From assembly GCA_905480215.1 (NCBI GenBank), contig CAJQPL010000031.1:30206-94205 (forward strand): a DNA stretch of 64,000 nucleotides, read 5' to 3'. Below the pieces are notes generated by a model that worked only from the letters and a program-made list of their open reading frames with translations, was not told the DNA's origin and searched no databases. This document shows, in pieces, positions 6,995 through 42,696 of this stretch; the stretch's first letter is position 1, and each line of letters begins with the position of its first letter. Source of the DNA: an uncultured Woeseiaceae bacterium. GTDB lineage: Bacteria; Pseudomonadota; Gammaproteobacteria; Steroidobacterales; Woeseiaceae. Position numbers and translations under genes: made by a program.

Positions 6995-7006
6995 TAACTT
7001 TGACTA

Positions 7007-7456
7007 ATGGACGACGAACTCAAATTAGAGAATTTTCTGCCATATCAGCTGGCCATTCTTTCCAATACTGTTAGCACATCTATCGCAAGAGCTTACGATC
7101 AGCGGTTCAAAGTATCTATCCCGGAATGGCGAGTCATTACCGCGCTGGGACGATTTCCGGGTCTGTCGGCGATCGAAGTGGCCGAACGCACAACGCTTGA
7201 TAAAGTAGCCGTCAGCCGCGCGGTGACCAAACTCATGAGAGGTGGCCGTATTGATCGCGGGTTTACAGACGTCGACAAACGCCGCTCAATTTTGAATCTG
7301 TCTGAGGAAGGTAAAAAGCTTTACGCTGAAATTTCGCAAATAGGGTTGCAATTCGAACGCGATCTCGTGCAAGGCTTCAGCGACGAGGAGATGGAGAATC
7401 TCAACGACATCATGCAAAGGCTGCTGGCTCGCGCGAAGTCTATCGGACCACTATAA
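7007..7456 (+). CDS. MarR family transcriptional regulator
   Basis: wHTH IPEWRVITALGRFPGLSAIEVAERTTLDKVAVSRAVTKL..GRIDRGFTDVDKRRS. Confidence 0.85.
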   Translation: MDDELKLENFLPYQLAILSNTVSTSIARAYDQRFKVSIPEWRVITALGRFPGLSAIEVAERTTLDKVAVSRAVTKLMRGGRIDRGFTDVDKRRSILNLSEEGKKLYAEISQIGLQFERDLVQGFSDEEMENLNDIMQRLLARAKSIGPL

Positions 7457-7488
7457 AGCGCCTTAAAGGGATAGTTTACGATGTAATT

Positions 7489-10400
7489 ATGGCATCATTC
7501 TTCGCGCCTCTGCCGGCGCCGTATCTCGGAGCAAACACAGTGCCATCCAAAGAAAATCGCCGCGTCGACGACACGAAAGAATCCATCGTCGCCGGAATTC
7601 TATCAAGCAAATCTCGCTCAAAAACACTCAGTAAGCACTCCCAGGCCAAGCTGTTTCTGCGCCAGTACTTTGAAGATATGCCGGTCGAGGACTTGCAGAG
7701 CAGATCTGAAGAAGTGATGGCCAGGGCGGCGATCGATCATCTGGACTTCGGCGTTGTGCGTCGCAAAGGCCAGTCACTGCTGCGGATTTTCAATCCCACT
7801 GTAAAAGAACATGGTTATACGTCGATGTACTCGTTTGTTGAGATGATCAACGACGACATGCCGTTCTTGGTTGATTCAGTGTGCAGCGCCATCAACCGCC
7901 ACGACCTGGCGGTACACATCACTGTGCATCCGATCATTGCGGTGAAACGCGATGGCAAAGGGCGACTAAGCGGCATCGGCAGCCCCGGCGCAAAAGGCAT
8001 AAGAAGCGAATCTTTTGTTCACCTTGCGATCGAAAGGGAAACTGATCCAGCGAAGCTGAAACTTCTGCAACAGGAAATTCGAAAAGTACTTCGTGACGTT
8101 CGAGTTGCCGTACGCGACTGGCAAAAAATGCGCGCGAAAATGCGCGAAGCACGGGATTCGATGCTCAACGGACCGAAGAATGCCGACCCGTTGCTGCAGT
8201 CTGAGAGTCAGGCCTTGCTTGACTGGATGGTCGAGGATCATTTTACCTTCCTCGGTTATCGTGAGTACTCCCTTAAGACCGAAGGAAAACGGTCTTTTCT
8301 CGAATCGGTCGATGGTAGCGGCCTCGGCGTTTTAAGGCGTGACGACCGTGGTCCAAATCCGATCGAACTCACGCCGGAAATGCTTCGCCTGCAGCGTTCG
8401 CGCGACTGGTTGATTCTAACCAAGGCAAATTCACGTTCGACCGTTCACCGCTCGGCGTTTCTCGACTACGTAGGCGTCAAGGTCTTCAACAACAGTGGCG
8501 TCGCTGTTGGCGAAAGACGTTTTATCGGTCTCCTGACCTCGATTGCTTATAGCGAAAGTCCAAAGAACATCCCGTTGATACGGCACAAGATCAGCAAAAT
8601 TTTCGAACTAGCGCAGGTCAACGAATTTGGCCATCGCGGCAAAACTTTATCTCACATCATCGAAACCTATCCCCGTGAAGAGTTAATTCAGAGCACGGTT
8701 CAGGATTTGGCCAGAACCACACTCGGCATCTTGAATCTGCAAGACCGGAAAAGAGTCAAATTCTTTCTTCGTCGCGACGCATTTCGCCGCTTCTTTTCCT
8801 GCCTGGTATTTGTTCCTCGAGACAGATATACGACGGCGATCAGACAACGTATAGAAAAATTACTGCAAGAGTCTTTCGGCGGCATCTCGGTTGATTCTTC
8901 TGTGCAAATTTCCGACTCAGCGTTAGCAAGAGTGCATATGATCGTGCGCACGAAAGAAGGCATGCAGGCACGCATCAGTATTAGTGAAATCGAGAAAAGG
9001 ATTGGCGAATTTATTGTTACCTGGTCCGACCGTTTGCAGCAGCAGTTGTTCGCAGAGTACGACCGCGATGAAGCAGGTCGACTGTTCAAAGCTTATGGTC
9101 AAATTTTTCCGGTCGGTTACCAGGAACATTCTCTGCCTTCGCAAGCGTCCTCCGATATTCTCCGCATAGATAGTATGTGCAATAGCGGTGCGTTACGAAG
9201 CGTAGATCTCTATGTACCCGCGAATTCCGAGCCCGATCATCTTAACTTTATGATCTACAGCAAAGACGAACCGATCGCACTCTCGGATGCGCTACCGATC
9301 ATTGAAAACATGGGCGTATCCGTATTCTCTGAACGCCCCTATGAGGCCGTTTTGGATTCCGGCGAATCGTTTTGGTTACAGGATTTTCATCTGGTGTATC
9401 AGGGCGCCGCGCCGGTCGATTTAGCAGCGGCGGGTAAACGTTTCGAATCCTGCTTCATGGCCGTCCTGGACGGCCTGGCGGAGAACGACGGCCTCAACCG
9501 GCTCGTCCTTAGTGGCGACCTCGACTGGCGCCAGACGGCATTGCTGCGGTGTTATGCGAAACACATTCAACAGCTGGGTTTACCGTTTAGCCAGACTTAC
9601 CTGGAAGACGTGTTAGTAGCGCACTCCACGCTCGTCCCCCTGCTGGTCGAAAAATTCGAACTGCAGTTTGACCCTGGTATTAACAAGTCGCGGCGTGATC
9701 GTGAATTGAAGCGAGTCTCCGCTGCCGTCGATCGTGGCGTGGCGCGCGCAAAAAACGTCGATGAAGACCGCATCTTGACGGCCTTCGCCGGCGGTATTAA
9801 TGCAAGCTTGCGCAGCAACTATTTTCTGACCGAAAACGAACAGCCAAAATCCTATATTTCGATTAAGCTGGATCCGGCGAGGTTACCGGAAATCCCGCTG
9901 CCAAGACCGGTGTTCGAAGTATTCGTGTACTCGCCGGAAGTTGAGGGAGTTCACTTACGCGGCGGCGACATTGCACGAGGTGGCCTGAGATGGTCGGATA
10001 GACGAGAAGACTTTCGCACCGAAGTTTTAGGTTTGATGAAGGCTCAGATTGTAAAGAATACAATCATCGTTCCAACCGGTGCGAAAGGTGGTTTTTTTCC
10101 TAAGCGCGCGCCCAGTGGGGACCGCGATGCGGTGCTGCAGAACGCTATTCATTGTTACAAAACCTTCATCCGTGCTCTGCTCGATATCACTGACAATGTC
10201 ATCGACGGCAAAGTTGTGACGCCGCCGGGAATCGTCTGCCGCGACGGCGATGATCCGTACCTGGTGGTCGCGGCTGACAAAGGCACAGCGACTTTTTCCG
10301 ATATCGCCAATGACATCTCAGCCGAATACAATTTTTGGCTCGATGATGCATTCGCCTCTGGCGGCTCGGCCGGTTACGACCACAAGAAAATGGGCATAAC

Positions 10401-26069: not shown

Positions 26070-27752
26070 CTAGCCTTGTTGTTGCATCGCTTGTTTTTCG
26101 AGTTTCGCCCACGAGTCGCGCAGCGTCACTACCCGATTGAAGATTCGTTTGTTGGCAGAATCTGTCTCACTGTCGGGACAAAAATACCCAAGCCGCTCAA
26201 ACTGAACTACTTCGCCAGAACTCAATTCAGACAATGAAGGTTCGAGTTTCGCAGATACCGTTTCAAGCGAAGTTGCGTTGAGAACCGCGCGGAAATCTTC
26301 CGCCTTGTTTGGATTCACTTCTGTGAACAAGCGATCGTAGAGATTGACCTCGGCATCGATGCAATGCGCGCTGGAAACCCAATGAATAGTGCCCTTCACT
26401 TTGCGCTCACTGCGGCCCGTGCCACTGCGTGTATCGGGGTCGTAGCTGCAGCGCAATTCAACGACGTCGCCTGCGTCGTTCTTAATCACTTCGTCGCAGC
26501 GAATAATATAGCCAAAGCGAAGCCGTACTTCGCCGTCAGGTTTTAAGCGAAAGAATTTCCGTGGCGCCTCTTCCATGAAATCGTCTTGTTCAATCCACAG
26601 CTCTCGCGAAAATGGCAGCGACCGGGTACCCATTTCAGGACGGCCCGGATGATTCATCGCCTCCATCATTTCAACTTTGTCGTCCGGATAGTTGCTTAGA
26701 ACAACCTTCAACGGTCTTAGAACTGCCATGCGGCGCGGCGACTCTTCGCCGAGATTTTCGCGAAGACAATTTTCAAACGCACCCATCTCGATAAGCTTGT
26801 TTTTCTTTGTAACTCCGGCCCGTCGTACGAAATCAAGCAATGCAGCAGCCGGGTAACCACGACGGCGCATACCGGAAATCGTGGGCATGCGGGGATCATC
26901 CCAACCGTCAACAATGCCCTCCTCGACCAAAGCATTCAATTTACGTTTACTTGTAATCGCATACGCCAGATTAAGGCGCGAGAACTCGATTTGTCTCGGT
27001 AAATGCTCTGGCTTGAGCTGCTCAAGAAACCAGTTGTACAGCGGCCGGTGGTCTTCAAACTCCAACGTGCATAAAGAGTGCGTGACGCCCTCAAACGCAT
27101 CGGACATCGTGTGCGCAAAGTCGTACAGCGGATAAATGCACCAGCTGTCGCCGGTATGCTGGTGCGACAAATGACGGATACGGTACAGAGCCGGATCGCG
27201 CAAATTCATATTCGGTGATGCCATGTCGATTTTTGCACGCAGCATCATCTCGCCGTCCGCAAACTCGCCGTTACGCATGCGCTCGAACAGTTCGAGGTTT
27301 TCCGCAACACTGCGGTCACGGTACGGGCTGTTCTTGCCAGCTTCCGTCAGTGTTCCGCGATAAGTACGAGTATCCTCAGCACTCAGACTGTCCACGTAGG
27401 CTTTGTCGATTTCGATCAAGCGCACAGCGGCCTTGTGCAATTGGCCAAAGTAGTCGGACGCGTGAGTTAGCCGATCCTGCCAGTCGAAGCCCAGCCAGCG
27501 CACATCTCGCTCGATGGCGTCAACATACTCGACTTTCTCCTTGCCTGGATTGGTATCGTCGAAGCGCAAGTAGGTACGACCGCCGGTTTCAGCGGTGACG
27601 CCGAAATTCAGGCAAATTGCCATCACATGCCCTATATGCAGGTAGCCGTTCGGCTCCGGCGGAAACCGGGTAACGACTTGTTGGTGCTTACCCGACGCCA
27701 GATCATCGTGGATGATTTGACGGATAAAGTCCCGTGATTCGATTTCGCTCAT
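26070..27752 (-). CDS. glnS: Glutaminyl-tRNA synthetase
   Basis: FPPEPNGYLHIGH (HIGH), SRLNLAYAITSKRKL, class I GlxRS fold. Confidence 0.95.
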   Translation of the reverse strand: MSEIESRDFIRQIIHDDLASGKHQQVVTRFPPEPNGYLHIGHVMAICLNFGVTAETGGRTYLRFDDTNPGKEKVEYVDAIERDVRWLGFDWQDRLTHASDYFGQLHKAAVRLIEIDKAYVDSLSAEDTRTYRGTLTEAGKNSPYRDRSVAENLELFERMRNGEFADGEMMLRAKIDMASPNMNLRDPALYRIRHLSHQHTGDSWCIYPLYDFAHTMSDAFEGVTHSLCTLEFEDHRPLYNWFLEQLKPEHLPRQIEFSRLNLAYAITSKRKLNALVEEGIVDGWDDPRMPTISGMRRRGYPAAALLDFVRRAGVTKKNKLIEMGAFENCLRENLGEESPRRMAVLRPLKVVLSNYPDDKVEMMEAMNHPGRPEMGTRSLPFSRELWIEQDDFMEEAPRKFFRLKPDGEVRLRFGYIIRCDEVIKNDAGDVVELRCSYDPDTRSGTGRSERKVKGTIHWVSSAHCIDAEVNLYDRLFTEVNPNKAEDFRAVLNATSLETVSAKLEPSLSELSSGEVVQFERLGYFCPDSETDSANKRIFNRVVTLRDSWAKLEKQAMQQQG

Positions 27753-27872
27753 GAAGATTTCGACAACTGATTTTCGAAGGGGCGTCATTGTACTCGAACT
27801 TGTTTATCCACGGGGCATTTCGCGTACAATATCGCGCCGTTACAGTCACTTCTTCGAGCAGCAAATCGAATT

Positions 27873-29807
27873 ATGCCGAAAATCACCTTACCAGACGGAT
27901 CCGAACGTCAATTTGATACGAGCGCCAGCGGCGCTGACGTGGCAGCCAGCATCGGCGAAGGCCTGGCGAAAGCCGCTGTTGCTGTGCGTGTGGATGGTTC
28001 CGAGTGGGACCTCGACCGACTTATCGAGCAAGACGCGGCAGTGGAAATCATCACCCGCGACTCGGATGACGGCCTTGAACTGCTGCGCCACGACGCGGCA
28101 CATGTATTGGCGGAAGCCGTTAAGGAGTTGTGGCCAGAGACGCAAGTGACCATCGGTCCGGCGATAGACAATGGCTTTTACTACGATTTTGCGCGCGAAG
28201 AGGCGTTTACCGACGCAGACCTCGAGACCATCGAATCGCGCATGAAAGAAATTGTTGAGCGAAACGAGACGATCAGTCGCGAAGTCTGGAAGCGCGATGA
28301 AGCTGTCAATTTTTTCCGCGGCATCGGCGAGCACTACAAAGCAGAAATTATCGAGAGCATCCCGTCGGCAGAGGACCTGACCCTCTACCGCCAGGGAGAC
28401 TTTATTGACCTTTGTCGTGGACCGCACCTGCCGTCTACCGGAAAGCTGGGCAAGTCTTTCAAACTAACGCGCGTTTCCGGTGCCTACTGGCGCGGCGACT
28501 CAAACAACGAAATGCTGCAGCGCATTTACGGCACGGCGTGGTCGAACGACAAGCAGCTTAGAAAGTACTTACACATGCTCGAGGAAGCTGAGAAGCGAGA
28601 TCATCGCCGTCTTGGACGCGTGATGGATCTATTCCATTTCCAGGAAGAAGCGCCCGGCGCCGTGTTCTGGCACCCGAAAGGCTGGTCTGTATTTCAGTCG
28701 CTAATCGGTTACATGCGGCAAAAACAGAACGAAGCCGGTTACCAGGAGATCAACACCCCTGAAATAATGTCGAAAGCGTTGTGGGAGAAGTCCGGGCATA
28801 ACGCGGCTTTTGGCGACAACATGTTTACGTCAGAGACTGCCGACGGTCGCGTTTACGCCGTTAAGCCGATGAATTGCCCGGGGCATGTGCAAGTCTTCAA
28901 GCAGGGAATTACGAGTTACCGCGACCTGCCCGTGCGTCTTGCCGAATTCGGCAAGTGCCATCGCTACGAACCATCGGGCGCCCTTCACGGCATGATGCGC
29001 GTGCGCGCATTCACTCAGGACGATGCGCACATTTTCTGTACGCCGGAGCAGATTACTGCTGAGTCGATTGACGTCTGCAAACTCATTCTCGATATTTATC
29101 GCGGTTTTGGATTTAATGACGTACGTATCAAATTCGCCGACCGGCCAGAAGTCCGAGTCGGAGAAGATGCCGTATGGGACCAGGCCGAGCAGGCCTTGCT
29201 CAAGGCGCTCGAGGTTGGCGGCCTCGATTACACGCACAATCCAGGCGAAGGCGCTTTCTACGGACCCAAACTTGAGTTCGTCTTGCGCGACGCGATTGGT
29301 CGAGACTGGCAGTGCGGCACCTTACAAGTAGATCTCAACATGCCTGGCCGACTGGGCGCCAGTTACATCGGCGAAGACGGCGAGAAACATTTACCCGTCA
29401 TGTTGCATCGCGCGATATTCGGCTCGCTAGAACGCTTCATGGGTATCCTGATCGAGCACCACGCCGGCAACTTGCCGCTATGGCTGGCTCCACAGCAGGT
29501 TAAAGTCCTGACAATTACCTCGGATGCAGATGAATACGCGACGGAGATCGCAACGTTACTTACAGCCAATGGGCTGCGAGCAAGTACAGATCTTAGAAAC
29601 GAGAAAATCTCCTATAAGGTACGGGAACATAGCGTCGCCAAGATCCCGGTGCAGTTCGCGGTCGGCCAACGCGAGTTGGAAAACCGCACGGTTGCTGTAC
29701 GTCGAATTGGCTCCAAGGCACAACAAGTCATGTCGCTTGACGATGCGCTCGCCGCACTCAAAACTGAGATCGAAAACCGCACGGGCAGCGACACTAGCGA
29801 CAACTGA
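27873..29807 (+). CDS. thrS: Threonyl-tRNA synthetase
   Basis: TGS/editing/class II catalytic domains; [46 protein letters not shown]. Confidence 0.97.
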
Positions 29808-29874: not shown

Positions 29875-30044
29875 GATGCTACCAAAATCCCAAACGTGAC
29901 CGGCCCTGCACTCACAATGTGCGCCGCGTCACAGATTCAGCATCCAGTTGCTGTCAAATGTAAAACCAGCGAAAACCCAAGGCTATACTCCCTCGACGCA
30001 AGGAATCCGTGAGCGATTCAACATAAGACCTTGGAGAAAGCGAA

Positions 30045-33000
30045 GTGCCGGCGGACCAATACAAAACACAAATATTATTGCTACATAGCAAGCAATCGAC
30101 TCTGGACGCCTTAAGTGCAGGGTTTAACGACAGCTATACGGTGCATTGTGCTACCAGCGGAAGCGAGGCATTGAACACGCTCGTCGACACACCAATAAAC
30201 GTTATCGTAACGGTGCAAGACCTGCCCGGCATGAGCGGACTGGACGCGCTTCGTGAAGCGAAGAAACGCTCCCCCGAAACAATAGGAATCCTGCTTGCCG
30301 GCAATGCAGGTGCTGATATTCAGGCTCTGGTCGGCGAAGAAGAAGTATTCCAGGTTGTAACAGGCAGCGTTACCAGCGCCGGCCTTAACCAGTTGGTCGA
30401 CAACGCTACACGTCAAATGAGATTACTGGCACTGGCCGGCGCGGCCAATGATACGGTCGCAAACGTTGATGAGCCCGCCGAACATATCATCATGGAAACT
30501 TCGGAAAACGGCTCAACGATAATCAGTGATGGCACAAATAGATTGCCCGCTCTCGACCCGACAAAGGTATCAGCCGCGATAAGCGTTGGTTCTCGGGCGG
30601 TTGATGTTCTGGTCTTAACCAAGGATCAGGAATTCCTTGAAACAATCAAGGATTCATCGCGCGGCGCGCACAAGGTGTTCTACGCCAATACTCTGGCGCA
30701 GGCAAACGATGCCATTAGCAAGAACAAAATCGGTGTTGCTGTTATCGATGCCGCCATGGTCGGGGAAAAAGTTGAACAATTAACGCAACATCTTCGCAAG
30801 AGTTCACAACGACTGGTATCCATTGTTGCGGGTCGCCGCGACGATGGCGAAATGCTGATGGACCTGATCAACCGCGGCAAGGTGTATCGCTTCTTATTAA
30901 AGCCAGTGTCACCGGGTCGTGCGAGACTTGCCGTAGAGGCTTCGGTCAAGCATCACCTTGAAGCACCCGATGCTGCTTTCAAGATCGTTGCTGGGTCTGC
31001 TGCAGCGACGAGAGCGGCGCCCAATCGGCCGGCGCCAGTAGCAAAACCTGTTGCACCGCCAACGCCTATCGTCAAGGCGGCTCCAAAACCGTCTGTCGTT
31101 GCAACTCCGCAAGCTGTTGCTAAGCAAGCGAAAGTTAAAAAAGCCGCAGCGCCAGTCAAACCAATGTCAAAACCGCTTGCCACGATGCCAAATGACCCGC
31201 CACTGGGGTCGGCAGTCGCACCCGGCGGCGGTTCGCCGATCGAGGATGGATTGGCCAATGCCTTTGGTCAGGATGACTCCAGCTTTACAGAGACGGTGAC
31301 GGGTCTTATCAGTTCCTTCACTGATAAAATTACGCCTGACAGCAAATCGGCCGACGACCTCGATGCCCCTTTGTCCGTAAAAGAAACTGTTGCCGTTAGC
31401 CCCAGGAAATCCGCTCCTGAGGAATCTGCATCGGCCGATGGGATGGACGGGAAGTTATTGCAGAGTCCGAAGTTAATCGGCATGGGTGCTGCCGCAGCAG
31501 CCGTCCTGGTGGCTGGTCTGTTTTGGGTATTTAGTGGTTCGGATAATCCCGTACCCACAAATGAGATTGAACGCGCCGACACCTCGGTCGCAGCAAAGGA
31601 CGCCGTAGCCCCAGTTGAAGTGGAAGTGGAAGTGGAAGTCGCAGCCGAAGTCGACGTCGAAGCACTGCTTGTCGAAGCACGTCAGGCACGCAACTCAGAT
31701 CAGATATTCGATCCGGATGGCAGCAATGCGATCGAGTTGTTTGCAGCCGCGCTGGCAGCCGAACCGGAGAACGACCTTATTGCAGCAGAATTGGATGCGG
31801 CGGTAAACGTTGCGCTGAGCATAGCCGAGTCAGGTATTCTTGAGTCACGGCTCGATGAGACCGATGCTGCCCTGCAACGAGTAGCGTCCGTTGATCCGCA
31901 GAATTCCCGACTTCCATTCCTTACCGCCCAGCTTTCTCAATTGCAGTATCGTGCGAACATCGATATAGCTCGAGCGGCACTCAGCGAAAATCGCCTCGAG
32001 GAAGCGGGTAATGCGCTGACTGCTGCTAGAGCAGCAGGCAGTCTCGAAACCACTGAATTGGACACACTGCAGCAGCAAGTCAATACGCTTCGCAGCGAAC
32101 AAGGCATTGATAGATTGCTCGCGAGAGCGCAAGCAAGACTCGACTCTGGCGATCTTCTGGTTCCCGTCAACGACAATGCGCGTTACTACTACCAGCTTGT
32201 TCTTGCCAAGGACCCAAGCAGTACGGTTGCTCACCGCGGTATTGGCGCTATTGCCAGCACCTTGGTACTTGAAGCGCGTAGCGAGATTCAACGGGGTGAC
32301 TTCAATGGTGCTGAAGATATCCTGGCGCATGTACGAGTCGTAGATCCGAACAACGCCGAGGCGGCTCTTGCCAGTGAAGAACTTGCCGCAGCACGAACCG
32401 CGACACGTGAGAATTCAGCGGCACGCCGTGCAGAACGGGAACAAACTGCATTGCTAGCATCACAAACAGCAGAAACAAACAGGCAAGCTGAAGCTGATCG
32501 ACAAGCCGAAGCCAACAGACAGGCTGAGGCTAATCGCCAGGCAGAAGCCGATAGACAAGCGGATGCTGAACGACAAGCACAGGCCGAACAGCAAGCGGAA
32601 GCTGAACAACAAGCACAGGCAGAACAACAAGCTGAAGCTGAACGACAAGCACAGGCAGAACAACAAGCGGAAGCTGAACGACAAGTTGCCGCCGAGCAGG
32701 CCGCCGCGATTGCAGCCGCTGCGCTGGCCGCCGAGCAGGCTGCGGCTGACTCAGCCGCGCAAACGGCCGCCCGAACAGGTGCGCCAAGCGTACAAACGTT
32801 TGCTGACACTTCAGCCGCTAACAGTCAGAAGGCTGGCGAAGTCATTCCGGCGGCGAAGCCGCAAGCAACCGAAATTGTGCCGGTAAGCTCCTTGAACAGA
32901 ATCAAATATGTTGCGCCGAAATATCCTCGTCAGGCACAACGACGCAATCTCTCCGGCTGGGTTGACATCGTTTTTACGGTTACTACCGATGGCAATGTCT

Positions 33001-33152
33001 CTAATGTTGCGGTCAGAGATTCCAACCCGGCTGACACTTTCAACAGTGCCGCGGTCAAGGCAGTAGAGAAGTGGCAGTTCGAATCGGTTCTGGAAAGCGG
33101 CATCGCTGTGGAAAAACGTGCCGGCGTCCGCATGCTATTCGCTCTTGAGTAG
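30045..33152 (+). CDS. Multidomain TonB family protein: two degenerate receiver-like domains, TM helix, hexapeptide repeat, TonB C-terminal domain
   Basis: 1035 aa, GTG start with GGAG SD; receiver-like segments at about 30060-30420 and 30600-30960; TM 31473-31532; C-terminal YPRQAQRRNLSGWVDIVFTVTTDGNVSNVAVRDSNPADTFNSAAVKAVEKWQF. Confidence 0.85.
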   Translation: MPADQYKTQILLLHSKQSTLDALSAGFNDSYTVHCATSGSEALNTLVDTPINVIVTVQDLPGMSGLDALREAKKRSPETIGILLAGNAGADIQALVGEEEVFQVVTGSVTSAGLNQLVDNATRQMRLLALAGAANDTVANVDEPAEHIIMETSENGSTIISDGTNRLPALDPTKVSAAISVGSRAVDVLVLTKDQEFLETIKDSSRGAHKVFYANTLAQANDAISKNKIGVAVIDAAMVGEKVEQLTQHLRKSSQRLVSIVAGRRDDGEMLMDLINRGKVYRFLLKPVSPGRARLAVEASVKHHLEAPDAAFKIVAGSAAATRAAPNRPAPVAKPVAPPTPIVKAAPKPSVVATPQAVAKQAKVKKAAAPVKPMSKPLATMPNDPPLGSAVAPGGGSPIEDGLANAFGQDDSSFTETVTGLISSFTDKITPDSKSADDLDAPLSVKETVAVSPRKSAPEESASADGMDGKLLQSPKLIGMGAAAAAVLVAGLFWVFSGSDNPVPTNEIERADTSVAAKDAVAPVEVEVEVEVAAEVDVEALLVEARQARNSDQIFDPDGSNAIELFAAALAAEPENDLIAAELDAAVNVALSIAESGILESRLDETDAALQRVASVDPQNSRLPFLTAQLSQLQYRANIDIARAALSENRLEEAGNALTAARAAGSLETTELDTLQQQVNTLRSEQGIDRLLARAQARLDSGDLLVPVNDNARYYYQLVLAKDPSSTVAHRGIGAIASTLVLEARSEIQRGDFNGAEDILAHVRVVDPNNAEAALASEELAAARTATRENSAARRAEREQTALLASQTAETNRQAEADRQAEANRQAEANRQAEADRQADAERQAQAEQQAEAEQQAQAEQQAEAERQAQAEQQAEAERQVAAEQAAAIAAAALAAEQAAADSAAQTAARTGAPSVQTFADTSAANSQKAGEVIPAAKPQATEIVPVSSLNRIKYVAPKYPRQAQRRNLSGWVDIVFTVTTDGNVSNVAVRDSNPADTFNSAAVKAVEKWQFESVLESGIAVEKRAGVRMLFALE
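32481..32696 (+). repeat. 12 tandem 18-bp/hexapeptide units ([RQ]Q[AV][EQDA]A[DNE])
   Basis: RQAEAD RQAEAN RQAEAN RQAEAD RQADAE RQAQAE QQAEAE QQAQAE QQAEAE RQAQAE QQAEAE RQVAAE. Confidence 0.9.
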
Positions 33153-33246
33153 CGAGTGACATTGCTTTACCATACGGTCAAATTATTTTCCGGATTGGAC
33201 CAAATAGTTAAATTCGACTAGAGTTGGCGGGTACTTGCCACCATGG

Positions 33247-33951
33247 ATGCCTCCTGTGCACGAAGAATCCGCTTTACATAACGTCCAGCCTGCGCGAAAA
33301 CAACAGCAGCGAAGTGTCGTTACGCAGCAAAAACTGCTTAATGCTGCAATCGAAGCGTTTGCCGAGAACGGATTTAAGGGAACGTCAACTCGTGATATCG
33401 CGGAACGTGCCGGTGTTCATCATCCGCTGATTACTTATCATTTCAAAAATAAAGACCAATTATGGCGCGCGGCGGCCGACTATATTTTTACTGCATTCTC
33501 GGCGTCGCTGAATAAGTCGCTGAAAGAACACAGCAACTTATCCCCGAAAAGTCAGATGTCTGCGATGATTCGTGTCTATGTCAGCTACGCGAAAGACCAC
33601 CCGGCGCTGCACAAAGTAATGGTTCAGGAAGCCAGCTACCCTAGCCCGCGACTGGATTGGTTGATTGAAGAGCACCTAAAACCGTTTTTCGATTTCGCCA
33701 TCGATATGCTCGGAAAGTTGCAGCAATTAGGCGTCGCAGTACCGGGAAATACTGCCGTGCTATTCAATATGATTCGTCTGTCATCGGGCGGCTTGCTGGC
33801 ACTCGGCAATGAACTTGGCGACTCAAGTGGGCTGGATATTGATGACCCAGAAACAATCGACGAGATTTGCGAAATGATCCTTAGGGTTTTCCTACCGGGC
33901 GAGATGCCGGCTGCCTATGCCGCCAACACCGCAGTCGAAAGCATTGCCTAG
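33247..33951 (+). CDS. TetR/AcrR family transcriptional regulator
   Basis: LLNAAIEAFAENGFKGTSTRDIAERAGVHHPLITYHFKNKDQLW. Confidence 0.9.
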   Translation: MPPVHEESALHNVQPARKQQQRSVVTQQKLLNAAIEAFAENGFKGTSTRDIAERAGVHHPLITYHFKNKDQLWRAAADYIFTAFSASLNKSLKEHSNLSPKSQMSAMIRVYVSYAKDHPALHKVMVQEASYPSPRLDWLIEEHLKPFFDFAIDMLGKLQQLGVAVPGNTAVLFNMIRLSSGGLLALGNELGDSSGLDIDDPETIDEICEMILRVFLPGEMPAAYAANTAVESIA

Positions 33952-33968: not shown

Positions 33969-34922
33969 TCAGCCACCGATGGGTCGATTCGCATAGAGAT
34001 ACAACATTTCCATCGCGAGATGGGATGCGGCGAGCGCCGTAATTTCGGCAACATCGTAGGCAGGGGCAACCTCGACGATGTCCATACCGATGACATTGAT
34101 GCCCTGCAGGCCGCGCAAAATCGACATCGCCTGATAACTTGTCAGTCCCCCGCAAACCGGCGTACCTGTTCCCGGTGCGTAGCTCGGGTCCAGGCAATCA
34201 ATGTCAAATGTAACGTAAACCGGCGCATCGCCGAGGCAGCGACGAATCTCTTTGACAGTCGCTTCGATCGACTGTGACTGCACCAACGGGCCATCGATAA
34301 TATTGAATCCCAGTGTATCCGGATTCTGCGTTCTAAGTCCGACCTGCACAGACGTGGACGGATTAACCAGCCCCTCCTTCGCAGCCCACCAGAACATCGT
34401 GCCATGGTCGATGCGATCGTTTTCATCCGCCCAAGTGTCCGAATGCGCATCAAAATGCAGTATCGACACGGGACCACCATGTTTGCGCACATGCGCCTTT
34501 ATCAACGGATAGGAAATAAAATGATCACCGCCCAAAGATAACAAAGCTGCACCAGCGGATAGCAGCTTAAAGGCCTCTTCTTCTATTTCCCCGGGCACAT
34601 TTTCCGGGCGCCCAAAATCAAAATAAGCATCGCCCGCATCAACCACTGCGAGCTTGTCAAATGGATCAAAATCCATACCGTAAGGTCTTTCCCAGGCCAT
34701 GGTCGCTGACGCGTTGCGAATCGCTCTTGGCCCCAATCGAGCACCGGAGCGATTAGTCGTGGCCGTATCAAACGGCACACCGAGAACGGCCACATCGACG
34801 CCGGTCATATCTTTGCAATACTTTCGACGCATAAACGATGTAACGCCACCGTAAGTCGGTTCGGGCGTCGTTCCGTACAAGCTATCGCGATCTACCGCGT
34901 GGTCATTACTGTGTTTATCCAT
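33969..34922 (-). CDS. speB: Agmatinase
   Basis: GGDHFISYPL, HFDAHSDTW, FDIDCLDPSYAPGTGTPVCGG ureohydrolase Mn ligands. Confidence 0.92.
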   Translation of the reverse strand: MDKHSNDHAVDRDSLYGTTPEPTYGGVTSFMRRKYCKDMTGVDVAVLGVPFDTATTNRSGARLGPRAIRNASATMAWERPYGMDFDPFDKLAVVDAGDAYFDFGRPENVPGEIEEEAFKLLSAGAALLSLGGDHFISYPLIKAHVRKHGGPVSILHFDAHSDTWADENDRIDHGTMFWWAAKEGLVNPSTSVQVGLRTQNPDTLGFNIIDGPLVQSQSIEATVKEIRRCLGDAPVYVTFDIDCLDPSYAPGTGTPVCGGLTSYQAMSILRGLQGINVIGMDIVEVAPAYDVAEITALAASHLAMEMLYLYANRPIGG

Positions 34923-36300
34923 ATTGCGAGCCTGCTAAGGATGCCTTGGTCAAATCAAGCGCTTTCCAGGTCGCCTCTATCATGGTGTCGACTTCGCTGT
35001 GCGAAAGCACGAACGGTGGCGCGCATATTATCTTGTCGCCAACAGCACGCATGCATACCCCGTCTTGCAGTAAGTGATCACGCAGCGTAGCGCCGGCATT
35101 TTGGTCTTCTTCAAATCGCTGCAAAGAACTCTTTTCCTTAACAATCTCGAACGCGCCCATCAGACCTACCATTCGGGTATCACCGATCAACGAATGCTCA
35201 CCGAGCGCACGCCACTTCTCTTGTAGATAGGGCCCGATGTCATTTTTGATTCGCCCAACAAGATTTTCGCGTTGTATCAGTTTGATATTAGCCATGGCGA
35301 CCGCGCAGGATACCGGATGACCGGAGTAGGTATAGCCGTGTGCAAACTCTCCGGCTTTTTCAGTTAACACGTCTGCAACTCGGTCGCTAACGAATACGCC
35401 ACCCAGTGGCAGGTAGCCTGAAGTCACACCTTTGGCGAACGGCATGAAGTCTGGGCGCGTGCCAAAATGATCGGCGCCAAACCACTCTCCCAGGCGGCCA
35501 AAACCGGTAATCACCTCGTCTGAAATCAGAAGGATTCCGTATTCATCACAGATTCGCTGCACTTCTGGCCAGTAGCTATCAGGCGGTACGATGACACCGC
35601 CGGCACCCTGTATGGGTTCGCCGATAAATGCTGCCACCTTATCCGCACCAACTTCTTTGATCTTGTCTTCGATAGTACGTGCCGCCGCGATTCCAAAGTC
35701 ATGCGGCGACAATGACTGATCACTGCCGTACCAATAGGGTTGAGCCACATGCACGATGCCGGGGATCGGCAATCCACTCTGCTTGTGCATAGACTGCATG
35801 CCGCCAAGACTTGCAGCAGCAACGGTAGAACCGTGGTAAGCGTTATCGCGACTGATAATGGTGTGGCGTTCGGGTTGCCCCATGAGATCCCAGTAGGTTC
35901 GAACCATGCGCACGATCGTGTCGTTCGATTCAGAACCTGATCCGGTAAAGAATATTCGATTGAGATGTGGTGGGCTAAGGTCTTGCAAAAGCGCAGCCAG
36001 TTCGATCGCTGGTGGATGCGAACATTGGAAGAAGCTGTTGTAGTACGGCAGTTCCTGCATCTGCGCTGTGGCCGCGTCGACTAACTCCTGCTGACCGTAA
36101 CCTACATTCACGCACCACAGACCCGACATGGCATCGAGGATTTTGTTGCCGTCAGCATCGAAAATATACACGCCTTCTGCGCGAGAAATAACGCGTGAGC
36201 GCTGCGCATGAAGTTCTTTGTGGTCGGTAAACGGATGCAGATGGTGACTCTTATCCATTTCCTGCAGATCGGTGAGTGAGCGTTTGTTTAAAGCGGCCAT
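34915..36300 (-). CDS. Class III aminotransferase, putrescine-pyruvate type (SpuC-like)
   Basis: DAMSGLWCVNVGYGQ, ISDEVITGFGRLGEWFG, FAKGVTSGYLPLGGV. Confidence 0.9.
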   Translation of the reverse strand: MAALNKRSLTDLQEMDKSHHLHPFTDHKELHAQRSRVISRAEGVYIFDADGNKILDAMSGLWCVNVGYGQQELVDAATAQMQELPYYNSFFQCSHPPAIELAALLQDLSPPHLNRIFFTGSGSESNDTIVRMVRTYWDLMGQPERHTIISRDNAYHGSTVAAASLGGMQSMHKQSGLPIPGIVHVAQPYWYGSDQSLSPHDFGIAAARTIEDKIKEVGADKVAAFIGEPIQGAGGVIVPPDSYWPEVQRICDEYGILLISDEVITGFGRLGEWFGADHFGTRPDFMPFAKGVTSGYLPLGGVFVSDRVADVLTEKAGEFAHGYTYSGHPVSCAVAMANIKLIQRENLVGRIKNDIGPYLQEKWRALGEHSLIGDTRMVGLMGAFEIVKEKSSLQRFEEDQNAGATLRDHLLQDGVCMRAVGDKIICAPPFVLSHSEVDTMIEATWKALDLTKASLAGSQYG

Positions 36301-36411
36301 GAAAACCTCTTGCGGCCGAATTGCGGCCGGATGTCATCTAAGTTTCGAAATTCTAACGAGTGAGAATCATTCAGTCAGGTCTACACCACATTCTGAAATG
36401 GATGGTCAACG

Positions 36412-37743
36412 CTATACGTTGAACATCAAAATTTCGCGTTCGTAGGGCGTAATAATTTCCTGGAATTCACTGTATTCAGCCTCTTTTAGAGCGGTATAAA
36501 GACTTACAAATTCATCACCTAACATGCTGCGCATGGCATTGCTGCTCCGCATCGCTTCGATCGCCGCATAGATATGACGGTGTAGATCAAATTCCCCGCT
36601 GTATGCACTGCCCTGCGCCTCTTTACTGGGCTTCAGGCCTTCGACCATGCCCAGATAACCACAGGCCAGCGTCGCAGCAATGACAAGATAAGGATTGACG
36701 TCAGAGCCGGCCAATCGGTTCTCAACACGACGTGCTTCGGGTGGTGAATCCGGAACTCTCAATCCGACTGTACGGTTGTCAATCGCCCATGCAAGATTGA
36801 CCGGCGACGACCAAGGGCTGGCGAATCGCCTATAAGAGTTTACATACGGCGCAAACGCCAACATGGCTTCCGGCATGTAGCGCTGCAAACCAGCAATGTA
36901 GTTGTAGAAGAGATCAGAGGGTGTGCCATCACTATTAGAGAAAATATTGCTGCCACTCTTATCCAAAATACTTTGGTGTATGTGCATCGAACTGCCCGCC
37001 TCTTCGGCGTGCGGTTTGGCGAGGAACGTCACGTGCATACCGTGCGTTATCGCAACTTCACGAAGAGTTCGCTTAAAAAGAAATACCTGATCTGCAAGTT
37101 CGAGTGCATTGCCGTGCTTGAAATTTATTTCCAGCTGCGCGGGGCCCATCTCTTGCGACAGAGTATCAACGAGGATGCCCTGCGCCTCGCAATAGTTGTA
37201 GACGTCGAGGATAAAGGGCTCATAGTCGTTCATCGAATCGATGCTGTAAGGTTGGCGAACATTCTCGGTCCAACCCAGTCGCCCCTCTGGCGGTTTCGCT
37301 TCCGCATCCGGATCAGAGTGCGGACTCAACAAATAGAACTCAACTTCGGGTGCGACAACAGGCACCCAACCTCTTGCCTCAAATTTCGCAATGACGTTAC
37401 GCAACACCGCGCGCGGCGATTTGGTCACCAGCGATCCGTCGCGCATGTAGCAATCGAAAAACACGGACGCGGCCGGATCTGTCGCCCAAGGTACCGGCCG
37501 CAAAGTCGTCGGATCAGGAACCAGCAACATATCCCGATCTTCGACATTAAGCTTGTCGGCGATATAGTCACCAGAGATCGTCTGCGCGAACACAGCCTCG
37601 GGCATCTTTATTTCACCAGATCCGAATTTATCGGCAGGAATGATCTTGCCTCTTGCTGAACCGGCCATATCAGGAACGAACGCTTCTACGTCTTCGATAT
37701 TTCGTTCTTCAAGCCAGGATTGGATCACGTCGGGTTTACTCAC
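36412..37743 (-). CDS. Glutamine synthetase family protein, probable gamma-glutamylputrescine synthetase (PuuA-like)
   Basis: PEVEFYLLSP, GPAQLEINFKHG, SSMHIHQSI, RVENRLAGSDVNPYL; GTG start inferred. Confidence 0.9.
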   Translation of the reverse strand: MSKPDVIQSWLEERNIEDVEAFVPDMAGSARGKIIPADKFGSGEIKMPEAVFAQTISGDYIADKLNVEDRDMLLVPDPTTLRPVPWATDPAASVFFDCYMRDGSLVTKSPRAVLRNVIAKFEARGWVPVVAPEVEFYLLSPHSDPDAEAKPPEGRLGWTENVRQPYSIDSMNDYEPFILDVYNYCEAQGILVDTLSQEMGPAQLEINFKHGNALELADQVFLFKRTLREVAITHGMHVTFLAKPHAEEAGSSMHIHQSILDKSGSNIFSNSDGTPSDLFYNYIAGLQRYMPEAMLAFAPYVNSYRRFASPWSSPVNLAWAIDNRTVGLRVPDSPPEARRVENRLAGSDVNPYLVIAATLACGYLGMVEGLKPSKEAQGSAYSGEFDLHRHIYAAIEAMRSSNAMRSMLGDEFVSLYTALKEAEYSEFQEIITPYEREILMFNV

Positions 37744-37744
37744 A

Positions 37745-38503
37745 TTACACCTGTCGTCGTAGCGCACGTGCTCTGCACGCGTCGCCAAACGTCCCAAAAA
37801 TTGCCATCGAAAATTCGTTTTCAGTTACACGCCATTCGGGATGCCATTGCACCGACAGGCAAAATTCCGCTGCCGAATCCACCGAGAAAGCCTCGATCAA
37901 GCCATCGTCCGCAACAGCCTCTACCGTAACACCGTCGGCCAGCTTCGCGATCCCCTGACCATGCAGCGAATTGACCATTTGCGTTTCCGCATTACACAGC
38001 TTCCGCAAAACACCACCTTCCATCAAGGTAACCGGATGTGACGGTCCGTACTGTAACTCCAGCGGATCATCTTTGTTCTCTAGATGATTATGATAACCCG
38101 GCACATCGCTAACATTTTGATGCAAGCTACCGCCGAGAGCCACGTTTAATTCCTGATGCCCACGACAAACTGCCAACAGCGGTACGCCCTTTTCAATGGC
38201 ACGCAGCGCCAGAGGCATGCTCATCGCGTCGCGTTGCGGGTCGTGAAACCCGGGCTGATCGGATGGCTTAGCGCCATAGTGATGTGGCTCAACGTTGGAA
38301 TAACTACCCGTCAACATCACACCATCAACCTTATCCAGCAAGTCGTCGATATCAATATCGTCCGCGAGCGAAGGCACGATCAACGGTAACGTATTGGAGC
38401 CATCAATGAGCGCACGCAGGTACTTCTCACCCGCGACGTGCGACGGATGCGGATCCAGAACTCGTCGGTCTGACGATACCGCTACGATTGGTTTAGCTGC
38501 CAT
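37745..38503 (-). CDS. Gamma-glutamyl-gamma-aminobutyrate hydrolase (PuuD-like)
   Basis: Peptidase C26: LLAVCRGHQELNVALGGSLHQ, LHGQGI, VQWHPEW. Confidence 0.92.
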   Translation of the reverse strand: MAAKPIVAVSSDRRVLDPHPSHVAGEKYLRALIDGSNTLPLIVPSLADDIDIDDLLDKVDGVMLTGSYSNVEPHHYGAKPSDQPGFHDPQRDAMSMPLALRAIEKGVPLLAVCRGHQELNVALGGSLHQNVSDVPGYHNHLENKDDPLELQYGPSHPVTLMEGGVLRKLCNAETQMVNSLHGQGIAKLADGVTVEAVADDGLIEAFSVDSAAEFCLSVQWHPEWRVTENEFSMAIFGTFGDACRARALRRQV

Positions 38504-38506
38504 ACG

Positions 38507-40351
38507 CTATGCCTGCGCCTGCCGTCCGAACATTCTCAGGACTCCGTACAAGAGCGCAGCGCCGACTATCAAGGATAGCCACGGCGGAAATCCAAAGCCG
38601 CCGGGAATCGTTCCGATAAAGAGTGCAACTACGCCGACTAGTAATGCATAGGGCAGTTGAGTTCGAACGTGCTCGATGTGATCACAGCCACTGGCGATTG
38701 ACGACAGAACCGTGGTGTCCGAAATGGGTGAACAATGATCTCCCCAAACGGCACCCGCCAGACAACAGGCCACTGCCGAATACAAAATGTGCATGCCACT
38801 CGGATCAGCGATTCCATGTACGACCATAACCGCCCAGGATAATGGAATAACCAGCGGCATGAGGATAGCCATCGTTCCCCAACTGGTTCCGGTGGTGAAC
38901 GCTGTGATTGCAGCCAGCAAGAATGTAATTGCAGGAATCAATGCAACCGGGATGGAATCGGCAAACATTGTAACCAGATATTTCGCCGTGCCCAGTGCGG
39001 CCGTGACGTCTGATAACGACCAGGCAAGCACAAGAATAATCATGCCAAACATGGTCGCACGTAACCCCCCGTACCAGGCATCGATCGTTTCGTGCACAGA
39101 TAGAATGCCCTGGCCGATAGTTAGTCCGGCCGCCACCAGAACACCAACGAAAGATGCGTACATCATCGCCCGGTATGGATCGGTCGAGGCGAGAATTTCT
39201 GTAAGCGTCGAACCCTGTCCCAACATGACGAGACTGACAGCCAAAGCGCCAATCAATACGATGATCGGGAGGAAACCATTAAACGCACGCAAGGGAATAT
39301 TGTCTTTCGGCTTAAGGTCATCGCCTTCGAGTGCCGGCAATACTTCCTTGGAAACCGGTTTCACCTCACCCTTTCGAGCACGAACTTCCGCTTTGTACAT
39401 CGGCCCAAAATCTCTCCCGGTCGCAGCTACCATCAACACAAATGCGATAGCTAAAATCGGATAGAAGCTATACGGTATCGATTGAACAAAAACAGAGTAA
39501 GCCTGGACATCATCCAGGCCATCAATAGTTCCAATCGCCTGATCAATCAGGCCGATCTGATATCCGATCCAGGTCGTTATCAGTGCGATGCAGGCAACCG
39601 GCGCCGCTGTCGAATCCACAATATAGGCGAGTTTTTCTCGAGAAATTTTCAAGTGATCAGTCAGCGACCGAGCCGTGTTACCGACCACCAATGTGTTGCT
39701 GTAGTCATCGAAAAATATCATTAGCCCCATTAGCCAGACGGCGACCTGTCCCGAAATAGCCGTCTTCGCTTTACTGACTATTGCCAATACGATGCTGGCC
39801 ATACCGCCATTGCGCGTAATGATGCCCACCATGCCACCAATCATCAGGGTAAATAAGATGATCGATGCTCTATCCGCGTCGGCAAGAGCGCCGCGAACGA
39901 AAACCTGAAACGTATCCAGCAGGCCAACGCCCGCGCCTTTGAGCGTAAAGGACTGCAGAGCCGTGGCACCCATCCACAAACCCAATAGCAACGCCGGTAT
40001 TACGTTGCGCAATATTAACGCGATAGCAATTGCGATCACTGCGGGCAGCACCGACAACCAGCCAGGTATAACGCGTAGCTGGCTACTCGACGATTCGTCG
40101 CCCGCATTCGCCACGAGCGACGCTGTTCCCATTTTGCCAATCGCAATATCGGAAAACCTTGCCAGACCGTCAACATCTGCAACCGCATGATATGAGCTGC
40201 CATCCACTAACAGCTCAACGGACTCACTCGCGCCGGCACCGCTAACGACGTAGTCCATCGGAACATCGACCAGACCGACAGAAGGAGATTGCAGCTCAAT
40301 GGCATTCGCTGAATGTGAAAACATCACCCAGACAAAACTGGCGAGCGACAA
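38507..40351 (-). CDS. NhaC family Na+/H+ antiporter-like transporter with secreted N-terminal beta-rich extension
   Basis: Multi-TM, VWLMGLMIFFDDYSNTLVVGNTARSLTD, GTSWGTMAILMPLVIPL, WGDHCSPISDTTVLSS. Confidence 0.88.
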   Translation of the reverse strand: MSLASFVWVMFSHSANAIELQSPSVGLVDVPMDYVVSGAGASESVELLVDGSSYHAVADVDGLARFSDIAIGKMGTASLVANAGDESSSSQLRVIPGWLSVLPAVIAIAIALILRNVIPALLLGLWMGATALQSFTLKGAGVGLLDTFQVFVRGALADADRASIILFTLMIGGMVGIITRNGGMASIVLAIVSKAKTAISGQVAVWLMGLMIFFDDYSNTLVVGNTARSLTDHLKISREKLAYIVDSTAAPVACIALITTWIGYQIGLIDQAIGTIDGLDDVQAYSVFVQSIPYSFYPILAIAFVLMVAATGRDFGPMYKAEVRARKGEVKPVSKEVLPALEGDDLKPKDNIPLRAFNGFLPIIVLIGALAVSLVMLGQGSTLTEILASTDPYRAMMYASFVGVLVAAGLTIGQGILSVHETIDAWYGGLRATMFGMIILVLAWSLSDVTAALGTAKYLVTMFADSIPVALIPAITFLLAAITAFTTGTSWGTMAILMPLVIPLSWAVMVVHGIADPSGMHILYSAVACCLAGAVWGDHCSPISDTTVLSSIASGCDHIEHVRTQLPYALLVGVVALFIGTIPGGFGFPPWLSLIVGAALLYGVLRMFGRQAQA

Positions 40352-40444
40352 TAATATAATGCGATTTCGGGGGATTAACTGTCGAATGTTGATACGTTTA
40401 TTCCTGCCGTTCTTACCGGCGGCATCTTATCACGGAGATTACAA

Positions 40445-41200
40445 TCAGTACCGGGGCTGTAGCCTTGTCGCTACCGCACACAGCGTTGCGCCGAGCTGCG
40501 CGCGGCGACTTTCGGTCATTCGCTGGCTGGGTCCGCAGATAGACAATGCTCCCAGAATCTCACCCATGCCACCACGCACCACCACGCCGACACCGGAGAA
40601 GCCCTCCTCAAGTTCATCGATTGTTTCTGCAAAACCACGCCGACGAATATCGCCAAGCTGCTTTTCCAGCGTGGCAAGCTCTGTAATGGTTTGCGGTGTA
40701 AGAGCCTGTAGAGTGCTTCTAAGCCGATCCGGACCATGCTGTTCGAATGCGATCAGCGCCTTGCCAGTCGAGGTCGCATGAATTGGCCAACGTGTGCCAA
40801 CATTACCCGACGCACCCACGAAATACTTACTCGTTACCTCATCGAGTATCAGCATCGCGTCGTCGATTGGCACCTCAAGCGTTGCAGTCTCACCGGTTTC
40901 CTCTGCCAGTCGCTTCAAAAACGGTCGCGCGCGCAAGCGAAGATCGTTGCTCGACAACGCCTGCACGCCCAAAGCCATCATGCCGGGGCCAAGCCGATAC
41001 GCGCTGTTCGCCGGGTTCCGGTCAAGCAATTCTTCGCTGAGCAAAGCCTGCAGTAAACGGTGGGTTGTGGTTTTGTTGAGACCTGACAAACCACTCAGCT
41101 CAGCAAGCTGAAGTTCTGGCGCCTCGGCGGTGAATAGCTTCAACAATCTTATTGCCCGAAGCGCGGATTGTGCCCCCTGGGGTGCGGCTTGATCACGCAT
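40445..41200 (-). CDS. IclR family transcriptional regulator
   Basis: SALRAIRLLKLFTAEAPELQLAELSGLSGLNKTTTHRLLQAL plus IclR effector domain; start MRDQAAPQ preferred. Confidence 0.9.
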   Translation of the reverse strand: MRDQAAPQGAQSALRAIRLLKLFTAEAPELQLAELSGLSGLNKTTTHRLLQALLSEELLDRNPANSAYRLGPGMMALGVQALSSNDLRLRARPFLKRLAEETGETATLEVPIDDAMLILDEVTSKYFVGASGNVGTRWPIHATSTGKALIAFEQHGPDRLRSTLQALTPQTITELATLEKQLGDIRRRGFAETIDELEEGFSGVGVVVRGGMGEILGALSICGPSQRMTESRRAQLGATLCAVATRLQPRY

Positions 41201-41310
41201 TATATTCCATACTATGAAGTTATATTTCACATTATAATATCACGACGACTATTGCGAAGGCAGGGAAAATCATTAATGCTCTTGGCTGCAACCCCCATTG
41301 GACAAGAAGT

Positions 41311-42696
41311 ATGGCCAGACAAAGTACGGCGCTGACACAGCTCAAAGCGGCGCAAAGAAAACACGGCAAGTTTGATGCGCTTGAAATGCTCATACCCGAT
41401 CTCAACGGCATTTTACGGGGCAAACGAATTCGCGCTCGCGACTTCGCCAAAGCCTGTGACGATGGTTTCCCATTTTGTGCAGGCACAACCTTGCTGACAA
41501 CGCTTGGCGAGACGGTTGCAGGAATACCCTTCGGTGAAGATGATGGCGATCCCGACGTTCCGGCCAAGCTGGTGCCCGGTAGTTTCGCACCAGTTCCATG
41601 GGCAAAAAAGCCCACAGGACAAGCGCTGTTCCGAACTTACAACGAGGATGGAACACCATTCTGGGGCGATCCGCGCGCGGTTCTTGAGCGTTCCCTGCAA
41701 GCATTGCAAAAGATGCAGCTAAAGCCTGTTATGGCAACGGAGCTGGAATTCTATTTGCTCAATGCCAGGTCCCGGACGCCCAAAGTCGGCGCGCCACTGG
41801 TGCCCGGAACTAACAAGGTGCAGCCAGGTTCACAGGTTTATCACCCGGATGATCTATATGAGGTAGAAGAATTTCTAAACGACGTCTACGATTATTGTGA
41901 CGCACAAAACATACCGGCCGAATCGGTAATCTCGGAATATTCACCCGGTCAGTTTGAGATCAATCTACGCCATGTAGACGACCCGGTGCTCGCCTGTGAC
42001 CACGCAGTACTAATGAAACGAGCTATTAAGGCAGCGGCACGAAAACACGGTTTCATTGCGTGTTTTATGGCAAAACCATTTGAAGAAGATGCCGGCAGTG
42101 GCCTGCATGTTCATATGAGTATCGTGGACAAGAATGCTAAGAATTATTTTTCACACGGCCGTGAAAACCTTGCCACACAACCATTCTCTTCGCGACTACG
42201 GCACGCCGTTGGTGGGCTCCTGAAAACGATGCCGGAGGCGACATTAATCTGCGCGCCAAACGCTAATTCCTATCGGCGACTAAGACCTGACATGTTCGCG
42301 CCTGTCGAACCCAACTGGGGCGTTAACCATCGCGCGGTTTCTATTCGCATACCGACGTCCGATGAGAAAAATCTGCGCTTCGAACATCGTGTTGCCGGTG
42401 CTGATGCGAATCCCTACCTCGTTACTGCCGCAATTCTCGCTGGCGTCCATCACGGACTTAAGAACAAGATTGATCCAGGCAAAATGGTTGAGAAAGGAGA
42501 ACACATCACGCCGAAGCTGAGGATCCCGAATCGCTGGGATGCGGCAGTCGACAAGTTTTCGCGCAGTAAGATTCTGCCGAACTATTTAGGCGCTGAGTAT
42601 TGCAGGTACTACGCGATGAACCGCCGTGGCGAAAGCACGCGATTTCACAACATGATCAGCGAGCTCGACTTCGACTGGTATTTGCGAGCCGTTTAG
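41311..42696 (+). CDS. Second glutamine synthetase family protein (gamma-glutamyl-polyamine synthetase-like)
   Basis: ATELEFYLLNAR, SPGQFEINLRHVDD, SGLHVHMSI, RFEHRVAGADANPYL. Confidence 0.9.
   Translation: MARQSTALTQLKAAQRKHGKFDALEMLIPDLNGILRGKRIRARDFAKACDDGFPFCAGTTLLTTLGETVAGIPFGEDDGDPDVPAKLVPGSFAPVPWAKKPTGQALFRTYNEDGTPFWGDPRAVLERSLQALQKMQLKPVMATELEFYLLNARSRTPKVGAPLVPGTNKVQPGSQVYHPDDLYEVEEFLNDVYDYCDAQNIPAESVISEYSPGQFEINLRHVDDPVLACDHAVLMKRAIKAAARKHGFIACFMAKPFEEDAGSGLHVHMSIVDKNAKNYFSHGRENLATQPFSSRLRHAVGGLLKTMPEATLICAPNANSYRRLRPDMFAPVEPNWGVNHRAVSIRIPTSDEKNLRFEHRVAGADANPYLVTAAILAGVHHGLKNKIDPGKMVEKGEHITPKLRIPNRWDAAVDKFSRSKILPNYLGAEYCRYYAMNRRGESTRFHNMISELDFDWYLRAV

Follow-up and report, generated by a model that had tools for sequence, protein, structure and literature searches.

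The standard picture of a TonB-type protein is an energy transducer with hardly any cytoplasmic part, and that of a response regulator is a switch for transcription or enzymes. What might a TonB-type protein do that carries a cytoplasmic part of about 470 residues with two receiver-like domains? The question is raised by a gene of an uncultured Woeseiaceae bacterium, from an order that includes an abundant marine-sediment bacterial group. The whole stretch of DNA analysed (the window, 64,000 nt) corresponds to positions 30,206-94,205 of the forward strand of contig CAJQPL010000031.1 in assembly GCA_905480215.1.

Gene and genomic context

The coordinates and sequence that an earlier note on this DNA had given for the open reading frame were correct, and the gene and its surroundings are as follows.

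26070..27788, minus strand: glutamyl/glutaminyl-tRNA synthetase gene (tRNA-synt_1c), probably glnS; conserved neighbour
27873..29807, plus strand: thrS, conserved upstream neighbour
30033..30036, plus strand: GGAG, Shine-Dalgarno-like, 8 nt before the GTG, read directly in the sequence
30045..33152, plus strand: PsR-PsR-TonB gene, 1035 aa, GTG start
33235..33951, plus strand: TetR-family regulator gene, conserved downstream neighbour

A gap of approximately 237 bp separates thrS from the PsR-PsR-TonB gene, and a scan for promoters and terminators produced nothing scoring above shuffles. The same arrangement, with a minus-strand class I (E/Q) tRNA synthetase gene followed by thrS, the PsR-PsR-TonB gene and the TetR gene, was found in about 50 of 59 related loci. 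The thrS and TetR genes look like plain synteny, and no functional partner gene conserved beside the window gene was found. Further downstream (33969-42696) lies a cluster of arginase-family, class III aminotransferase-like and glutamine-synthetase-like genes that looks like polyamine catabolism.

Domain architecture

The protein consists of two receivers, a disordered linker, one transmembrane (TM) helix, a TPR-like helical rod, a coil and a TonB_C domain:

30066..30428, plus strand: REC1, aspartate-less pseudo-receiver (residues 8-128; Pfam, AlphaFold2 and residue counts)
30429..30602, plus strand: inter-receiver linker (residues 129-186; conserved ANDT...HIxMETSENGSTIISDGT; low pLDDT)
30603..30968, plus strand: REC2, pseudo-receiver without acidic pair, Asp235 and Lys286 kept (residues 187-308)
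30810..30962, plus strand: REC2 beta4-alpha4-beta5-alpha5 block (residues 256-306; RRDDGEMLMDLIN and KPVS invariant in 54 sequences)
30969..31454, plus strand: Pro/Ala/Lys-rich disordered cytoplasmic linker, with a semi-conserved DGLxxAFGxDDSSFTETxTG stretch
31476..31532, plus strand: single TM helix (residues ~478-496; without SHLS motif)
31656..32414, plus strand: periplasmic TPR-like helical rod (residues 538-790; pLDDT ~95)
32415..32879, plus strand: TolA-like coil, repeat and linker (residues 791-945; poorly conserved)
32880..33149, plus strand: TonB_C domain (residues 946-1035; pLDDT ~95)

Two stretches matched Pfam Response_reg (1.9e-11) and residues 957-1032 matched TonB_C (1.2e-14), both above the curated cut-offs, while no FHA domain was detected in the Pfam scan of the protein and the tolA_full model reached 38.4 bits, below its cut-off of 59.45. 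The receiver-like character that the earlier note had read at the N-terminus was borne out by structure prediction: AlphaFold2, run with 54 N-terminal homologues, modelled residues 8-135 and residues 187-306 each as a complete beta-alpha-beta series, so that both N-terminal halves have a complete predicted (beta-alpha)5 receiver fold, and in the full-length model the receivers mostly have pLDDT values of 80-96. The best PDB matches found by Foldseek were PleD, HupR and the TonB C-terminal domain (CTD), the top match for the receivers being PleD, itself a tandem receiver. The TonB_C domain is full-length and canonical and resembles the Pseudomonas TonB CTD. The linker, single TM helix, TPR-like segment, TolA-like repeat and TonB_C domain named in the same note were all seen by Pfam or in the model.

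Receiver residues and the invariant face of REC2

The alignment of 54 homologues upheld the reading that REC1 has HS in place of the acidic pair and has lost the phospho-acceptor Asp. H14-S15 is invariant at the site expected to hold DD; the phosphosite, position 57, is Ala in 52 sequences, Val in one (the window protein) and Glu in one; position 85 is Ala, or Thr in two; G107 is invariant and the Lys-Pro is absent. For REC2, the claim that the Lys is kept and the acidic pair missing was accurate (K286-P287 is invariant, and T/S192-x-D194, with a variable position 193, replaces the pair), but it overlooked D235, an invariant residue that lines up with the phospho-acceptor Asp. Also invariant are A262-G263 and D194, the latter one position past the acidic pair.

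A receiver that lacks one or more of five residues (DD, D, T/S and K) is a pseudo-receiver by definition (PMC12632262). REC1 of the window protein lacks all five and REC2 lacks DD and T/S, so both fall under this definition; the intact phosphorylation residues of a typical response regulator are absent from the window protein and were found only in REC1 of the split relatives described below.

Conservation within REC2 is uneven: RRDDGEMLMDLIN (residues 264-276) and KPVS (residues 286-289) are invariant on the beta4-alpha4-beta5 face, and variation falls on the sides formed by alpha1-beta2-alpha2 and alpha3. Receivers usually dimerise or pass on their output through the alpha4-beta5-alpha5 side (PMC12632262), and because the invariant face coincides with it we infer that this part of REC2 is a protein interface. 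Alternatively, the invariant RRDD-beta5 surface could be a binding site for a small molecule such as a cyclic nucleotide, whose binding would set the state of the TonB arm; the pseudo-receiver of ShkA binds c-di-GMP on its beta5-alpha5 surface (PMC7010744) and RRDDGEMLMDLIN does not vary. We regard this as very unlikely, as a protein interface accounts for the same conservation.

Distribution and selection

In named genomes, nearly all of them Woeseiaceae-type MAGs, 59 related loci were found to hold this fusion. A receiver profile matched 91 of 107 Woeseiaceae genomes (2 of the 91 weakly), and the gene was absent in all genomes of genus g10 (1.1-2.0 Mb, up to 99% complete). The protein, called chimeric in the earlier note, is no one-off but a family-wide, strongly selected protein with conserved synteny, and an assembly or MAG chimera was rejected given the 59 loci with the same fusion. 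No clear fused relative beyond the order was found in a phylum-wide sample at a strict cut-off, and weak psREC-TonB matches occur in f145 and f133, which are further families of the class (L164, L166-L168). Locus L165 (3095-8300) holds in a row a 182-aa open reading frame that weakly matches a pseudo-receiver, a TonB that has approximately 150 cytoplasmic residues and a TonB-dependent receptor (TBDR).

The receivers are the most conserved portion of the window protein, with a mean pairwise identity of 0.75 for REC1 and 0.79 for REC2, followed by the inter-receiver linker (0.69), TonB_C (0.66), the TPR-like part (0.51), and the linkers and coil (0.16-0.34). In close pairs, pN was 0.12-0.40 for the cytoplasmic linker and 0.01-0.08 for REC1 and REC2, pS being similar, and both receivers are under strong purifying selection. 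The loss of phosphorylation residues would fit receivers that are vestigial, functionless decoration, but a vestige is hardly credible as the most conserved and most strongly selected part of a protein, and the idea was rejected on domain conservation and pN/pS.

Evidence for and against energy transduction

The SHLS motif (Ser-3x-His-6x-Leu-3x-Ser) in the TM helix of TonB-type proteins contacts ExbB/TolQ (PMC12905483). Neither this motif nor a TM His was present in 49 homologous TM helices, and no S-3x-H fit was found in 38 TM helices of relatives. As proof against energisation the missing His was weakened by the exbD-linked TonB of the window genome (contig C23), which likewise lacks it. As the earlier note had observed for the immediate neighbourhood, there is no exbD or TBDR gene nearby, and we found neither an ExbD nor a TBDR plug match on the entire 94,205-bp contig C31; the 5 ExbD and 17 TBDR plug matches of the genome are all on other contigs, and the genome also encodes other TonB_C proteins. 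The g10 genomes without the gene still have 4-14 TBDRs and 0-1 detectable TonB_C proteins, an absence that is confounded with genome reduction. Small genomes have been reported for water-column Woeseiaceae (PMC12175321), and g10 is by inference such a lineage.

These observations bear on whether the protein is a genuine TonB, energised by the proton-motive force (PMF), that serves one or more TBDRs and whose uptake is gated from the cytoplasm by the pseudo-receivers. The canonical TonB_C domain, the receptors and several ExbD genes of the genome, the His-less exbD-linked TonB and the distant L165 protein, encoded directly upstream of a TBDR gene, are all consistent with this reading. Ordinary uptake is nevertheless disfavoured because the SHLS motif is missing, the contig carries neither exbD nor a TBDR plug gene, and the TBDRs of g10 persist without the gene; the other TonB_C proteins of the same genome could serve its receptors. 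We therefore consider a canonical nutrient-uptake TonB less likely, and a PMF-energised, cytoplasmically gated one unlikely. The suggestion of a cytoplasmically gated energy transducer or scaffold is sensible as a class of explanation, with energy transducer its weaker half.

Split operons and other fused relatives

The closest relatives of the window protein are a split operon and single-receiver fusions. In the split operon, one strand encodes a membrane histidine kinase (HK; HisKA and HATPase), then a response regulator (RR; REC1 and pseudo-REC2) and then a TM-TPR-TonB_C protein with just ~12-25 residues N-terminal to the TM helix. Such operons occur in Woeseiaceae and, within this order, also in the four families f184-f187. 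Among loci chosen by response regulator match, and hence not a random sample, 13 were complete (L092, L096, L130, L134, L135, L137, L138, L140, L141, L145, L147, L148 and L151); in L146 the TonB frame is shorter. For L092 and L096, collinear matches to the window protein were found with each of REC1, REC2, the TM-TPR part and TonB_C. Directly after the L092 operon (6374-8290) lies a gene for a lipoprotein-like protein with PKD and TolB-type beta-propeller (PD40) domains that is absent from L096, and the operons of L134 (6733-7869), L135 and L138 have a fourth gene, with a second TonB_C-like domain.

Split-form REC1 is canonical throughout (VDDE, D, T and K-P; a second REC1 match in L137 is a separate, ordinary response regulator), and REC1 is decayed or lost in every fused form checked. 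We identified approximately 22 single fused proteins (psREC-TM-TPR-TonB_C, ~430-710 aa) in f2, f3, f183, f190, f191 and f194, including L149, which is cut at the contig start, and further double fusions with a degenerate REC1 in L117 (f183) and L124 (f2). Conserved neighbours of the fused genes reflect lineage synteny only, with the exception of genes for an Hpt-HATPase kinase and a CheX phosphatase just upstream of single psREC-TonB genes in L090, L132 and L142 and of a truncated copy in L143, a third setting with two-component parts. The L143 gene (5250-6425), behind the Hpt kinase and CheX genes, encodes a 392-aa psREC-TM-TPR protein that ends before TonB_C and is either a decayed copy or a variant without this domain. 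Elsewhere in the order, a genome encodes an 867-aa protein with a Ser/Thr protein kinase domain, TM helix and TonB_C (L169, 2798-5398), a further case of a TonB arm that carries a signalling domain in the cytoplasm.

The acidic pair is missing from REC2 in split as well as fused forms, being replaced (mostly by T/S-x) in essentially every member, and the phosphosite Asp remains in almost every pseudo-REC2 domain of the split and single-fused forms. Together with the invariance of D235, D194 and K286 and the kinase and CheX genes adjoining several relatives, the retained Asp would suit a REC2 that works as an unorthodox receiver, with D235 phosphorylated by a kinase in trans and D194 and Lys286 helping. 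This appears improbable for a domain in which the metal-binding pair is so consistently replaced and which is a pseudo-receiver by the definition above.

In an unrooted tree of psREC2 and TonB_C, all split forms formed one clade (support 100/99) and the window family, with L149 inside, another well-supported group (100/100). Response regulator and TonB arm are adjacent in some genomes and fused in others, a Rosetta-stone pattern that supports a functional link between them. Fusion and fission would both fit the unrooted tree.

A proposed trans-envelope signalling or scaffold role

We consider it probable that the window protein is a trans-envelope signalling or scaffold protein, in which a tandem-receiver response regulator is fused to a TM-TPR-TonB_C protein, and we read it as a phosphorylation-independent link from cytoplasm to envelope that may derive from an HK/RR/TonB module. 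The tandem pseudo-receiver would act as a docking or dimerisation module without phosphorylation, through the alpha4-beta5-alpha5 face of REC2; the long flexible linker and single TM helix would couple the helical rod in the periplasm to a partner in the cytoplasm, and the TonB_C end may bind, by beta-strand addition, a partner in the outer membrane or the periplasm. Kinase phosphorylation of REC1 would control the same step in the split operon, and this input could have become dispensable after fusion, with REC1 then decaying or being lost. A point against this scheme is the short pre-TM stretch of the split TonB, which makes direct docking of the response regulator not obvious.

Across a bacterial order, a response regulator module shares an operon with a TonB-type arm or has repeatedly been joined to it in one protein. 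This offers a possible inside-out signalling route to the outer membrane and provides a natural series, from the phosphorylatable split form through single fusions to double fusions with a dead REC1, that bears on how pseudo-receivers act without phosphorylation. More tentatively, the split HK-RR-TonB operons and their phosphorylation-free fused descendants might constitute a new class of two-component systems whose output is a TonB-type arm across the periplasm rather than transcription or an enzyme. In such a class, a signal in the cytoplasm could act directly on proteins of the outer membrane or cell wall.

Comparison with known systems

Our searches of the open-access literature gave no account of receivers that are fused to TonB or share an operon with it, and a 2025 review of pseudo-receivers (PMC12632262) does not mention TonB. 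The combination of a cytoplasmic signalling domain, TM helix and TonB_C is known from GltG, as are phosphorylation-independent receivers from FrzS (PMC1974792) and ShkA (PMC7010744). GltG/PglI of the Myxococcus xanthus gliding machinery (FHA-TM-periplasmic part-TonB_C, 640 aa) is not a nutrient-uptake TonB (PMC3169522) and shares with the window protein a cytoplasmic signalling-type domain, one TM helix, a periplasmic part and a C-terminal TonB_C, but has FHA rather than pseudo-receivers, interacts with the motor protein AglR and has no response regulator relatives. FrzS is likewise built on an aspartate-less pseudo-receiver but is no membrane-spanning TonB-type protein. M56 (BlaR1)-TonB_C proteins (L171, L178) also join TonB_C to an inner-membrane or signalling domain, in their case a protease domain without receivers. 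TonB and TolA have the single TM helix (N-in), long periplasmic spacer and TonB_C fold in common with the window protein, which differs in its long cytoplasmic part, its TPR-like rod and the lack of SHLS and of ExbBD/TolQR neighbours. The closest structural match, PleD, has tandem receivers of which the second is an adaptor, in the same active-plus-pseudo order as the split response regulators, but its output is a diguanylate cyclase rather than a TM-TonB arm, and in the window protein REC1 is inactive too.
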